Source of the DNA: Desulfocapsa sp. | Lineage (GTDB): Bacteria; Desulfobacterota; Desulfobulbia; Desulfobulbales; Desulfocapsaceae | Direction: 5' to 3' | DNA length: 64,000 nt | Assembly (NCBI GenBank): GCA_030145625.1 | Contig: JAQYVF010000008.1 | Location: forward strand, 1 to 64,000 | Part shown: in pieces, positions 21,591-62,570 of the stretch | Numbering within the stretch: the first letter of the stretch is position 1 | Layout of the letters: every line of letters starts with the position of its first letter | The notes under the pieces: generated by a model | What the model was told of the DNA's origin: nothing | What the model saw: only the letters and a program-made list of their open reading frames with translations | Database searches by the model: none | Translations under genes and position numbers: made by a program

Positions 21591-23576
21591 TCATTCCTTT
21601 TGAGAGGCAATGTGTTGTGTTTGAGTAGGCTCAATCTTCAAGCAGAAAGGGAGTAATTCTCTATTGCAGCTCACTGTATCGTCGGTTTCGCTTATGGAAA
21701 AGAAGAGCCGAAACAATTTACTTTCTTTGCAAAACATGTGTTGAACTAACGGCATACAGGCGCATTCGTCTGGTGCCCAGGAGAACATGAGTCCCTTATT
21801 ATCTGTTTGTACAATTATTCCACCATTTGTTGAACCAAAACCACCGTTGCTTGAGACGAGAGTAGACGCAACAGAAGAGTGATCGAATTCATGATTTAGT
21901 GAAAAATGTTCTTGAGCTGGCCCTCCGTTGGCTGTAATTATTTCTATATTGTCGCCCAGGCTCTCCGGTAAAAAAGTCATTATACCGGCTCTGATTGAGC
22001 TGATATACGTCTGTGTGCCTGCATCAAAAACATAGCATAGAGAAACAGACTCTGTATCTCGAGCAATTGTTATAGTCTTGAGCAATACACCAAGTTTAGT
22101 ATTAATTTCACTGCTTATTTCAAGTTCATTTTCTGTCCATTTAAATTTTGGTATAACAGGCTCGAGATCTGTTGTACGGGTGTGTTCAGTTGGAAGTTCG
22201 GCCACTAAATTCCCACTGTAAAAATCTGCACCAAAGGCAATGGATTTATAATAGCCATGCGGTAGGCTACCCACCAATGTTGAAAAATCGTGACTCTTAA
22301 AGGCCAGCGATTTTATAGCCATTCCCCTTCGCATGTTCAATACCAATTCAATTTGAGCGGTCTTTACAGATAAATATATGTTGTCGTTTTTCCATTTGAT
22401 TTCAAAACCTTTTTTGTCAGCAGCAACGATAGGATAGCAACAAGCTTCTTTGGGTTTCACCAAGTTATGTTCGCGTAAAAAACATCTCAGTTCTTCAGTC
22501 ATTTTATCCCAGCGTTTTTTTTCGATATGTGTCCGAAAATCACTGGCCCAGAATTCACAAAGTTTCAGCCAATCCTCTTTGTTATCGTTTGAAGTTTGAG
22601 ATAAATGTCTTCTGATGCGGTGACACATGGTGTTCAGCCACAAATCATTTCTGCCGGTTATTGCCCAACGAGCAATGTTATATTTTGCTTGTTTTTTTAC
22701 TGGGATGGGATGAGATGCTGAAGTTAAACGTGAGACCGTCCGGTTAACAGATTGGTTGTTGATTCGGAGTGCCTGGCCAGGTGAAATCCACTCTATTTCT
22801 GTTTCTTCGGCAACTGATCTTAAAAGATCACGTAGACGATTCCATTCTCCTTCGATATGTATTGAGCGCTCCTGACCGAAACGACCGGGGCGATAATCAA
22901 AAATTTCAGCATCATTGCAGTATAGAGGCAGAAGCTCTTCACCGTCACCTATACGTTTTTTCAAGTACTGCAAATAATCAGTTTTCGCAATATCTCCGTG
23001 AGCATAATGTTGGATCTTCTGAAAGAGAATAGAATCTGCCCATAACACGGGTAAGACAGCATCAGTTGTCCCTTTAGCATGGGTTGGGACAGCAGACATT
23101 TGTGCACCATCAAGATCCAAGGCTAGGCGTACATTGTCCCTGTCCATGATAAAACCCTGGTAGGCGAACTCGGTATACAGTTCAATCAGACTGTTGGAAT
23201 AGGCCATTTCGTTAACTAATACAATGTTCGGTCGAACATCGAGGACACGCTCGTATTCTTGTAATCCCAGTCTCTGGTTCCAGACATTTACCTCGTGGGG
23301 GACGAGTGGAGCAATAATCTGGCAGTAGCCGCTGCCAATGAGTTCACACTGCTTGGCTTTTAACAATTTTTTAAATTGGGTTATCCAGCCAGGGTCAATT
23401 TGTTCTATCTGTTTCAGGGTCCAGCCTGTAAGCTCAACACCCACAGGAATAGCCGTTTCTTCGATGAATCGCAGTAAGGAATGATAGCAAATGTTGATGA
23501 CATCTGACCGTGATTCAGCGGCAATTGAAGAGAATGCGAGATTAAGATGAAAAATTATATAACCTTTTGGGTGCAT
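21591..23576 (-). CDS. Glycoside hydrolase family 57-like / polysaccharide deacetylase-like protein
   Basis: 661 aa; N-terminal YIIFHLNLAFSSI...GVELTGWTLKQIEQIDPGW...LIGSGYCQIIAPLVP resembles GH57 (alpha/beta)7-type fold; last gene of a compact operon. Confidence 0.65.
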   Translation of the reverse strand: MHPKGYIIFHLNLAFSSIAAESRSDVINICYHSLLRFIEETAIPVGVELTGWTLKQIEQIDPGWITQFKKLLKAKQCELIGSGYCQIIAPLVPHEVNVWNQRLGLQEYERVLDVRPNIVLVNEMAYSNSLIELYTEFAYQGFIMDRDNVRLALDLDGAQMSAVPTHAKGTTDAVLPVLWADSILFQKIQHYAHGDIAKTDYLQYLKKRIGDGEELLPLYCNDAEIFDYRPGRFGQERSIHIEGEWNRLRDLLRSVAEETEIEWISPGQALRINNQSVNRTVSRLTSASHPIPVKKQAKYNIARWAITGRNDLWLNTMCHRIRRHLSQTSNDNKEDWLKLCEFWASDFRTHIEKKRWDKMTEELRCFLREHNLVKPKEACCYPIVAADKKGFEIKWKNDNIYLSVKTAQIELVLNMRRGMAIKSLAFKSHDFSTLVGSLPHGYYKSIAFGADFYSGNLVAELPTEHTRTTDLEPVIPKFKWTENELEISSEINTKLGVLLKTITIARDTESVSLCYVFDAGTQTYISSIRAGIMTFLPESLGDNIEIITANGGPAQEHFSLNHEFDHSSVASTLVSSNGGFGSTNGGIIVQTDNKGLMFSWAPDECACMPLVQHMFCKESKLFRLFFSISETDDTVSCNRELLPFCLKIEPTQTQHIASQKE

Positions 23577-55675: not shown

Positions 55676-56035
55676 TCACACCTGTCCAGAAAGGAGTCGA
55701 CCGTTAACTTTAGAATTAACCATTCCGGCATTAGCCGAGTAACCGGAGGTCACTGTACGTTTCCCAAAAAATTCCATGGTTTCTCTGATCCAGCCAAGTG
55801 TTGCTTTGAAGAGATAAGCATTGCGTCTGTTTTCGTGACGGATGGTTTCGGCAATTTCTTTATCTTCTTCTTCCAGTACTTTCATGTGGGCCAGAACTTG
55901 AAGGAGTTCTTCTTTTTCTTGCATGGTTTTGGTTAAGGATTCCATGTCCAGAGCTTTGGCATTCTCCCGTTCTTTCAGGATAATTTTATGCAAGCGTATA
56001 AGGTACTCATGAGTTGTTCCGGCGGTCATAATCAT
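55676..56035 (-). CDS. flgN: FlgN-like flagellar chaperone
   Basis: 119 aa helical; between flgM and flgK; IILKERENAKALDMESLTKTMQEKEELL. Confidence 0.75.
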   Translation of the reverse strand: MIMTAGTTHEYLIRLHKIILKERENAKALDMESLTKTMQEKEELLQVLAHMKVLEEEDKEIAETIRHENRRNAYLFKATLGWIRETMEFFGKRTVTSGYSANAGMVNSKVNGRLLSGQV

Positions 56036-56316
56036 TTTTCCTCCATGAGGAACTGAAGTAGATTAGAGGCAACTTTGTTAAGGTCGGGTTCATAGGAGCC
56101 ATTGGCAATTTGGGCCTTGAGTTCTGCAACTTTTTCTGCTCTGCCACTATTGTCCGCTCCAGCCTGAGCTTTATGCACATCCTGCAAAACCGATGAAAAT
56201 TGCACCTGATCCGCTTCCTGCATGGAACCGGTTTTTTTCTCGGTCTGCGCCTTTTCACCTTTTTTAATGCTGCCTATTTGTCCAAGGCCGCCAATTCCGA
56301 AAAATTCAACACTCAT
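56032..56316 (-). CDS. flgM: Anti-sigma-28 factor FlgM
   Basis: C-terminal GRAEKVAELKAQIANGSYEPDLNKVASNLLQFLMEE; start MSVEFFG. Confidence 0.9.
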   Translation of the reverse strand: MSVEFFGIGGLGQIGSIKKGEKAQTEKKTGSMQEADQVQFSSVLQDVHKAQAGADNSGRAEKVAELKAQIANGSYEPDLNKVASNLLQFLMEEK

Positions 56317-56341
56317 TTTCTCACCTGTATTCAATCTCGAT

Positions 56342-56923
56342 TTAAGATACCTGTTCCTGGCTGTCCACTTCTGCCCAGGCGTCAAGTTTGTTCATTACTG
56401 CATCATAGGTTTCGTAAGAAATGTCAGGAAGTGAGCCGCCAAAAGCGTCAAGGGCTTCACTGAATCCTTTTTCCACCCCTTCTTTAATGGCTGCCAGTCT
56501 TGATGGATCACCACCTGCAAGGGATATTGCAAAATCTACAATACGATCAGAAGTTTGTCCAACTCCAAAGTAACCATCTTCGCCAATAAGCCCTGTGGCT
56601 TCTTCCTGGCTGAGATTGCTGATATCAATTTCCTGGTCGCCATTACTTGCTTGAAATTCAATTCCCTGTTCTTTAAGCATATTGACCACCAACTCTCTGA
56701 GCAGACCGTATTGATCCTGCGCATTGCCTGTCTCGATGGTAAGAGAACTGGAGTAGGTCATGGATACTTCCTGATGCTGGTTAATGGTAACTGAATCGGA
56801 TTTTTGTGTTGGGCTGTTTTGATTATTTGTCTCTTTATCAGCCAGCCGATTTATATTTTTATTGTTATGTTGTCGCAGTTCCTGGGGATTCAAATGAGCC
56901 TGGTTACTAATTGTGTTTGCCAT
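56342..56923 (-). CDS. Unknown protein heading the flgM-flgN-flgK operon
   Basis: 193 aa; good SD (aaggaggcgaaaacaATG), preceded by a sigma-28-like promoter. Confidence 0.75.
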   Translation of the reverse strand: MANTISNQAHLNPQELRQHNNKNINRLADKETNNQNSPTQKSDSVTINQHQEVSMTYSSSLTIETGNAQDQYGLLRELVVNMLKEQGIEFQASNGDQEIDISNLSQEEATGLIGEDGYFGVGQTSDRIVDFAISLAGGDPSRLAAIKEGVEKGFSEALDAFGGSLPDISYETYDAVMNKLDAWAEVDSQEQVS

Positions 56924-57001: not shown

Positions 57002-57029
57002 ATATCGGATTGTTAGAGTGAGAAGTTTA
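57002..57029 (-). promoter_or_regulatory. Candidate sigma-28 promoter of the orf193-flgM operon
   Basis: Minus strand TAAACTTCTCACTCTAACAATCCGATAT: TAAA-N18-CGATAT, identical geometry to the fliC candidate. Confidence 0.55.
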
Positions 57030-57359
57030 GTGCCTTAGAGCTAACTTTGTAACTTTTTGTGACAAACCAGTACAAAATAAAATATTTCCTCAGAGCTACC
57101 CCCTACGGTTAAGGCACTTATCCTTTTTTTAAGGGTTAGTGCCTTAGAGCTAACTTTGTAACTTTTTGTGACAAACCAGTACAAAATAAAATATTTCCTC
57201 AGAGCTACCCCCTACAGTTAAGGCACTTTCACCCCTCAAGGGGGTACTAAAAGGAGTCCTTTATGCTTGGTGCCTTAGAGCTAACCTTGTAACTTTTTGT
57301 GACAAACTCATTCAATAATAAAATATCTCCTCAGAGCTACTCTCTACAGTTAAGGCACT
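57030..57359. repeat. Three ~89 bp repeats (57030-57118, 57139-57227, 57270-57359) with terminal inverted repeats GTGCCTTA...TAAGGCAC
   Basis: Copies 1 and 2 nearly identical, copy 3 diverged in the middle; conserved GTGCCTTAGAGCTAACyTTGTAACTTTTTGTGACAAA...CCTCAGAGCTACyCyCTACrGTTAAGGCACT. Confidence 0.95.
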
Positions 57360-57654
57360 TTCACCCCTCAATGGGGTACTGAATAGAGTCTTTTTGTAAG
57401 TGAGTAGATGGTAGCAAACCCTGTTCGCAGATAACTCCACTGAAAACAAAAAACATTATAATTTCTGCTTGTTTCCTTAAAGCACAATGCATTCCTATGC
57501 AGATAGTTATGAAAATGGAGTTGGTTTGAAAGATGAAGGCGAAGGGAATATGAGGGCAGGTGGTGGATTTTGAAAATGCTAGATCAAATCCAAGATAATA
57601 AACTTTTGCTGGAACCTGGTTCAAAATAGAACAGATTTTATTCTTCTATTCATA

Positions 57655-57978
57655 TTATTTTTCACGTTTGGTAGAAAGTTGTTCTTTTAGTTGGTCGTAC
57701 ATTGCCTCTCCTACTCCCATACCTTTTCCGGATGCCGTCTGTTTGGCCAGTTCCATATCGAGCATCTCCTTATACAGTTCACTTGCCATATCTTTTTCAA
57801 AGAGTCCGCTATCAGGAACTGTTTTACGCATTGCCTTGTACATTTCATTGATGTAGATGGCTTCAAAATCTCGACATGATCGACGCAGCGCCTGTAGTTC
57901 CTTCTCTTTGGGATCGGTTGCCTGATCTTTTATATTTGTTGAAGAAAGCATTGTTCTTGGGTCAATGGAGAGGTTCAT
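57655..57978 (-). CDS. flgJ: FlgJ-like rod-binding protein (N-terminal domain only, no muramidase domain)
   Basis: ALRRSCRDFEAIYINEMYKAMRKTVP...YKEMLDMELAKQTA. Confidence 0.88.
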   Translation of the reverse strand: MNLSIDPRTMLSSTNIKDQATDPKEKELQALRRSCRDFEAIYINEMYKAMRKTVPDSGLFEKDMASELYKEMLDMELAKQTASGKGMGVGEAMYDQLKEQLSTKREK

Positions 57979-62419: not shown

Positions 62420-62570
62420 ATATTTTTATCTCTCTCTAAAAAATAATTGTTCTTTTGAAATTTTCTTTCTCTTTTTGAATCGGTTGTTTGACTTTGTTTC
62501 TTAAGGAAAAAGACCTTTGTGTAAAGCTTGCAAACGATTAACAGAAGGTCCTATGGAAGCTATTGCCTGT

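Follow-up and report, generated by a model that had tools for sequence, protein, structure and literature searches.

Elements of the IS200/IS605 type and the non-autonomous PATEs are inserted in one orientation 3′ of a fixed tetra- or pentanucleotide, which is kept, and no target duplication is formed. Very small mobile repeats of ∼21-27 nt were reportedly described in cyanobacteria by Elhai and colleagues in 2008, with precise insertion, also inside other repeats. REPs, 20-50 nt long, are tagged with GTAG (or CGTC), and those with GTAG often lie beside RAYT genes (PMC3733652, PMC3116915, PMC8266576). BOX repeats of Streptococcus pneumoniae have terminal inverted repeats and target duplications and are linked to ISSpn2 (PMC3049150). 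IS200/IS605-type enzymes are associated with different subterminal hairpins and with a short, oriented 5′ target that is kept (PMC8266576 and general knowledge).

The DNA analyzed here is a stretch of 64,000 nt from Desulfocapsa sp. (the window), in which a short repeat array lies between flgJ and orf193-flgM. The array most probably consists of three head-to-tail copies of a short non-autonomous, MITE/REP-like mobile DNA element (probability ∼0.8). Serial insertion of a short mobile element had been one proposal of a preliminary description made from the window alone, and it was borne out by a dispersed family, precise empty sites, independent insertions at a single nucleotide and recurrent arrays.

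The element resembles REP and REPIN sequences, which are moved by RAYT/TnpA-REP, in being short, palindromic, extragenic and non-coding, in its many copies, in the short tag beside a hairpin and in its tandem clusters. Unlike REPs, members of the array family are ∼110-135 bp long, contain two hairpins and are flanked by TTTAG, and a search for a gene with matching ends found none; the base of both hairpins and of the 27-nt unit described below carries neither GTAG nor CGTC. Outer modules around a variable number of short inner modules, and mutual nesting with other repeats, are shared with BOX (PMC3049150), but the sequences are unrelated, and here a hairpin of 27 nt forms the inner module and is also inserted into other hairpins. 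Unequal subterminal hairpins, a kept short 5′ target and oriented insertion are shared with IS200/IS605 elements and PATEs, although no tnpA-bearing relative with these ends was found. The 27-nt unit differs in sequence and hosts from the small cyanobacterial repeats as reportedly described. MITEs of Thiomargarita are TATAG-ended, and their ends differ from those of the array family (PMC4853749). In kind the element is apparently ordinary, a short non-autonomous mobile repeat; its form (modular with two hairpins, a separate 27-nt unit and repeated targeting of a -35 box) appears unusual and undescribed. No description of the family was found in the open-access literature, the search of which was not a full survey.

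Layout of the array beside the flgM promoter

The features of the region are as follows.

56032..56385, minus strand: flgM ORF (anti-sigma-28; PF04316, E 4.7e-15), ATG start probably near 56316
56342..56923, minus strand: orf193, first gene behind the sigma-28 promoter, no Pfam match
57003..57030, minus strand: sigma-28-like promoter of orf193-flgM, -10 core CCGATA (57008-57003), -35 CTAAA (57030-57026)
57030..57138, plus strand: copy 1, 109 bp, without a 27-nt unit at its CTTAT junction
57030-57117, plus strand: hairpin 1 of copy 1, arms GTGCCTTA..TAAGGCAC
57122-57135, plus strand: hairpin 2 of copy 1, CCTTTTTTTAAGGG
57136-57138, plus strand: right-end TTA of copy 1
57139..57269, plus strand: copy 2, 131 bp, with hairpin 1 (57139-57226), junction, 27-nt unit and degenerate hairpin-2 end CCTTTATGCTTG
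57231..57257, plus strand: 27-nt hairpin unit nested in copy 2, dispersed elsewhere
57270..57399, plus strand: copy 3, the most diverged, with hairpin 1 (57270-57358), 27-nt unit and decayed right end
57363..57389, plus strand: 27-nt hairpin unit nested in copy 3
57655..57978, minus strand: flgJ (rod-binding protein; PF10135, E 1.8e-14), upstream neighbor on this strand

Repeat comparison within the window gave three head-to-tail copies in register (57027, 57136 and 57268) with 90-99% identity, in agreement with the copies at 57030, 57139 and 57270 of the preliminary description. Tandem analysis resolved the array into a 109-bp tandem with 98% matches and a 132-bp tandem with 89%. By gapped alignment copies 1 and 2 are 99% identical and copy 3 is 90-91% identical to them; a 1-nt insertion in copy 3 had been masked in the ungapped comparison. 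The length of ∼89 bp first assigned to the repeat holds for its body but not for the repeating unit, which is 109 bp in copy 1 and about 131 bp in copies 2 and 3. The right end of copy 3 is uncertain and lies at about 57393-57399. There is no ORF of at least 60 amino acids inside 57030-57360, so the array has no coding capacity.

Each copy reads G-TGCCTTA...TAAGGCA-C (hairpin 1), CTTAT or CTTTC, CCTTT...AAGGG (hairpin 2, decayed in copies 2 and 3) and TTA. The terminal inverted repeat GTGCCTTA/TAAGGCAC noted earlier was confirmed. The segment TTGTAACTTTTTGTGACAAA, singled out before as strongly conserved, reads as an internal hairpin, whose arms by inspection differ yet pair in related subfamilies (e.g., TTTCTTG..CAAGAAA). 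In copies 2 and 3, but not in copy 1, CTTTC is separated from CCTTT/CTTTT by 27 further nt, ACCCCTCAAnGGGGTACTnAAnnGAGT. This is the hairpin that had been seen to follow copies 2 and 3; each of the two units has 2 mismatches from the dispersed consensus, with 0 such matches expected by chance in the window. The bodies of copies 1 and 2 are virtually identical, and their right ends differ in the presence of the 27-nt unit and in the letters before it (TTAT vs TTTC). Near-identical bodies with different tails are not explained by simple insertion, which suggests conversion or unequal recombination.

The promoter reads CTAAA-N17-CCGATA on the minus strand, and the edge of copy 1 directly abuts its -35 box, as had been described (TAAA). 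On the plus strand the match is TATCGG-N17-TTTAG, with the -35 box read as TTTAG (57026-57030) directly before copy 1. FlgI was also confirmed next to the array region by Pfam, and orf193 stands between flgJ and flgM in congeners as well.

A dispersed family and its 27-nt unit

The 4.98 Mb (229 contigs) of the window's own genome were searched for further copies. A genome-wide copy count, proposed earlier as a check, placed the 89-bp body at one locus, this array, and about ten occurrences of the 27-nt unit's hairpin were found. A purely local structure, read from the single locus of the body, was dropped because the 27-nt tail proved dispersed. Family matches were present in 26 of 38 relatives, from genus to order, with very different interiors on one plan: TTTAG-[hairpin 1, ∼88 bp here]-CTTAY-[0-3 × 27-nt unit]-[hairpin 2]-TTA. 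The dispersal that had been named as favoring a MITE was thus found for the architecture but not for the 89-bp body, which has no second locus in its own genome.

One branch of the family was searched for with a strict pattern, TTAGTRYCTTA...AAGGYACTT, which matched 215 copies in 23 of the 38 relatives and 0 in reversed controls. Another branch, F4 (GGAGCCGTTACG...CGTTACGGCTCC), was represented by 46-51 scored copies per genome in three further genomes; these had 0, 1 or 2 inserted units, and the closest copies were 98-99% identical to the query. The boundaries of dispersed copies are constant, and in one nested case (L195) F4 is inserted into another element at TTAG.

Arrays recur. A second array in the same genome (contig C19, about 22847-23160; L018:548-860) consists of 2.9 copies of 101 bp, the last with a 27-nt unit; it shares the architecture, is unrelated in sequence and lies immediately before an ORF that starts MTENKNTIYSL. 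L137, L035/L059 and L311 likewise have arrays whose junctions fall exactly at TTA(G), the one in L137 having three copies with a 27-nt unit in the middle one.

The 27-nt unit is a hairpin, ACCCCTCAAGGGGGTACTGAAAAGAGT, found in 0-3 copies at the middle junction of family elements. The exact 27-mer occurs in at least 119 stretches of GTDB genomes, across Desulfobulbales and beyond. Among the matches listed, most are metagenome-assembled genomes (MAGs) of Desulfobulbales; the isolate Desulfoluna spongiiphila is also represented, as are MAGs labeled Gammaproteobacteria, Thermodesulfovibrionales and Omnitrophota, labels that can be wrong for MAGs. The 4 nt before the unit, among 127 listed, included TTAT (54), TTAC (33), TTTC (12) and TTCT (11). 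No match to the unit with its flanks was found in the plasmid collection.

The sequences compared indicate that the unit behaves as an insertable unit in its own right, since it occurs as tandem copies (L119, L123), within the hairpin-1 loop (filled in L136, empty in L161) and inside unrelated palindromes of Gammaproteobacteria. Seven records (L095, L113, L118, L159, L174, L190, L204) have the identical unit inside a CCCTCT/AGAGGG palindrome family, and several of them are labeled Gammaproteobacteria or Ectothiorhodospiraceae; these cases suggest horizontal spread of the unit or of its enzyme. Two units in opposite orientation also lie in a composite of several elements on another contig of the window's own genome (C176:7643-7788; L004, L005).

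The sigma-28 -35 box as insertion site

Regions downstream of flgJ were compared in 14 congeneric genomes, including the window's own. The promoter is kept at the same place in filled and empty sites, and so is TTTAG. In six genomes (G007, G012, G002, G010, G013, G011) the site is empty and the flank follows TTTAG directly; G008 has a changed box and no element. Seven sites are filled, by five subfamilies: G000, G003 and G009 by the same one, with one copy each in G003 (27-nt unit decayed) and G009 (no unit), and G004, G005, G014 and G016 by others. On the FlgI tree, some inner nodes of which are weakly supported, filled lineages are interspersed with empty sisters; the empty G011 is sister to the filled G005, and their flanks can be aligned on both sides.

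Because filled and empty sites alternate on this tree and the interiors differ, at least five independent insertions have occurred at the same nucleotide in the 14 genomes. A single ancestral insertion is indicated by the related copies that three congeneric species have at this site; it multiplied to three copies only in the lineage of the window. The other subfamilies entered the identical nucleotide independently in four other lineages. The window copies are closer to each other (90-99%) than to the copy of G003 (82-85%) or G009 (73-75%), which argues for a local origin of the array, within this lineage.

Read in reverse complement, the sigma-28 -35 box is TTTAG, so that the abutment of array and promoter is best read as choice of target, not as regulation. 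Since the -35 box is preserved, an insertion would only exchange the DNA upstream of it and would probably be near neutral for flgM. Searching 38 genomes for ATCGG-N(10-22)-TTTAG-TRYCTTA returned 11 matches, against none in controls. The spacing was N=17, that of sigma-28 promoters, in 9 of the 11 (six at orf193-flgM, three at flgF); P is ∼4e-9 for nine of 11 at one spacing, with flgM cases that are not all independent (G000 and G003 share one insertion). These genomes contain ∼94 TATCGG-N17-TTTAG sites, many of them chance sites judging by controls. Roughly one in ten of such sites has an element, a share above that over all TTTAG sites before any correction for intergenic position. What is claimed here is the identity of the target, not a preference for active promoters. 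At flgF the site is filled in G005, G014 and G023; in the window (62480-62506) the flgF sigma-28-like promoter has CTTAAG where congeners have CTTTAG, and there is no element.

Movement and alternative readings

The element lies directly 3′ of a kept TTTAG. Each copy ends in TTA(G) and follows TTTAG, so that both edges would regenerate the target; a new copy could then enter beside an old one and yield a head-to-tail array, and junctions exactly at TTA(G), as in the arrays above, would be expected. The outer ends, TGCCTTA.. on the left and ..CCGGTG, ..CTGCG or ..TCGGG on the right, are not inverted repeats of each other, and hairpins 1 and 2, which lie near the two ends, differ from each other. 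Among 16 F4 copies the left tetramer was TTAG in 15, and the right one was TTAG, TTAA, TTAC, TTAT or other. A duplication of TTA would be indistinguishable from the element end, as the target always has TTA.

Movement as folded single-stranded DNA, with an HUH/Y1-type enzyme (IS200/IS605- or RAYT-like) acting in trans, is tentatively put forward at a little under even odds: the outer ends are not mutual inverted repeats, a separate subterminal hairpin lies at each end, elements enter in one orientation after a fixed short target, and a faithful 4-bp duplication is absent. Genes with the Y1 domain (PF01797) are present in 34 of the 38 genomes. The flanks of those in the window's own genome showed no element ends, none of the Y1 loci examined was an autonomous copy, with tnpA between such ends, and element counts did not correlate with Y1 counts (rho 0.04). 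The best Y1 neighbor elsewhere was one weak case (L088), a RAYT-like gene in G032 with a partial element upstream. Other element fragments beside Y1 genes were set aside, as on inspection they were mostly ordinary IS200-type ends or short matches. For this exact subfamily no recent dispersal was seen in its own genome, which speaks against the explanation preferred here. Another contig of that genome (C197:17839-21582; L213) carries three near-identical RAYT-like Y1 genes in 4 kb, at least two of them preceded by the palindrome GGGGACAGACCCCG; this is possibly a REPtron cluster unrelated to the array element.

A more radical account, considered unlikely, is a new system in which composites are built from separately moving hairpin modules (∼27-90 nt) that insert behind TTA-type sites, carried by an enzyme outside both the known Y1 and the DDE types. 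Its target would coincide with the sigma-28 -35 box, so that flagellar promoters would be recurrent landing sites across related bacteria.

Also improbable is a DDE-type MITE (e.g., IS5/PIF-like) with duplication of a TTA or YTAR target. Hairpin 1 alone (GTGCC..GGCAC), with perfect terminal repeats and TTA on both sides, has the look of a terminal-inverted-repeat element with a 3-bp duplication, and the outer ends are YTAG-like. However, at the sites examined the two hairpins move together and hairpin 2 is missing from empty sites; the mobile unit therefore lacks terminal inverted repeats at its outer ends, and the variable right tetramer of F4 argues against a faithful 4-bp duplication.

The hairpins themselves are conserved as structures. 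Covariation across homologs, suggested in the preliminary description as a check, was found: the arms of hairpin 1 pair within the element (at least 6 of 9) in 48 of 62 diverged copies with TTAG in range, and in 36 of 950 controls with right arms swapped between dissimilar copies. In 18 aligned unit-free copies 97.6% of cells in the named hairpins were standard pairs vs at most 60% when slid, and both-sided changes occurred in three pairs, in an alignment that is imperfect in places for hairpin 2. RNAalifold returned hairpin 1 only from this alignment, and hairpin 2 was scored as a named structure. These comparisons place the stems under constraint, be it at the DNA or the RNA level; the orientation of the copies, given below, speaks for DNA.

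In favor of the earlier proposal of a structured RNA or riboregulator, in tandem within the flagellar operon, are the stable hairpins, whose stems covary, and the place of the array between flgJ and orf193, where a transcript might read through. The proposal is now very improbable. There were 0 hits to 4227 Rfam families at E ≤ 1, folding z-scores were modest (-0.3 to -2.0), and no terminator-like site was found in the array region. Seven congeners, half of those compared, have no element at the flgM site and others have one with an unrelated interior. Dispersed copies occur in either orientation to genes, with 17 vs 20 between same-strand genes (mechanical ORFs) and no bias; 1 of 67 copies lies inside an ORF.

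Integron attC-like sites or an array of empty cassettes, with G^TTAG junctions and recombination of folded single strands, are slightly less credible still: units do begin with TTAG after G and are tandem in several genomes, but by inspection there is no RYYYAAC/GTTRRRY simple-site pair at unit ends, the sequence after the right TTA is free and single copies are found scattered over TTTAG sites. A multi-site operator for a flagellar regulator, also proposed earlier and given the least credence here, would consist of three spaced sites with a conserved palindromic core upstream of the -35 box, but species with no element keep the same promoter and genes, filled sites of other species have unrelated interiors at that promoter, and the same architecture stands at many other loci with no orientation bias.

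With the array read as copies of a mobile element, its conspicuous position beside a flagellar regulatory promoter would be explained by the target site and not by regulation. Insertion would then have left a natural record at the flgM site, where one nucleotide was hit independently five times or more among 14 related genomes. The 27-nt hairpin, apparently self-inserting, nested in larger elements and present letter for letter in distant bacteria, would be close to the smallest mobile DNA described.
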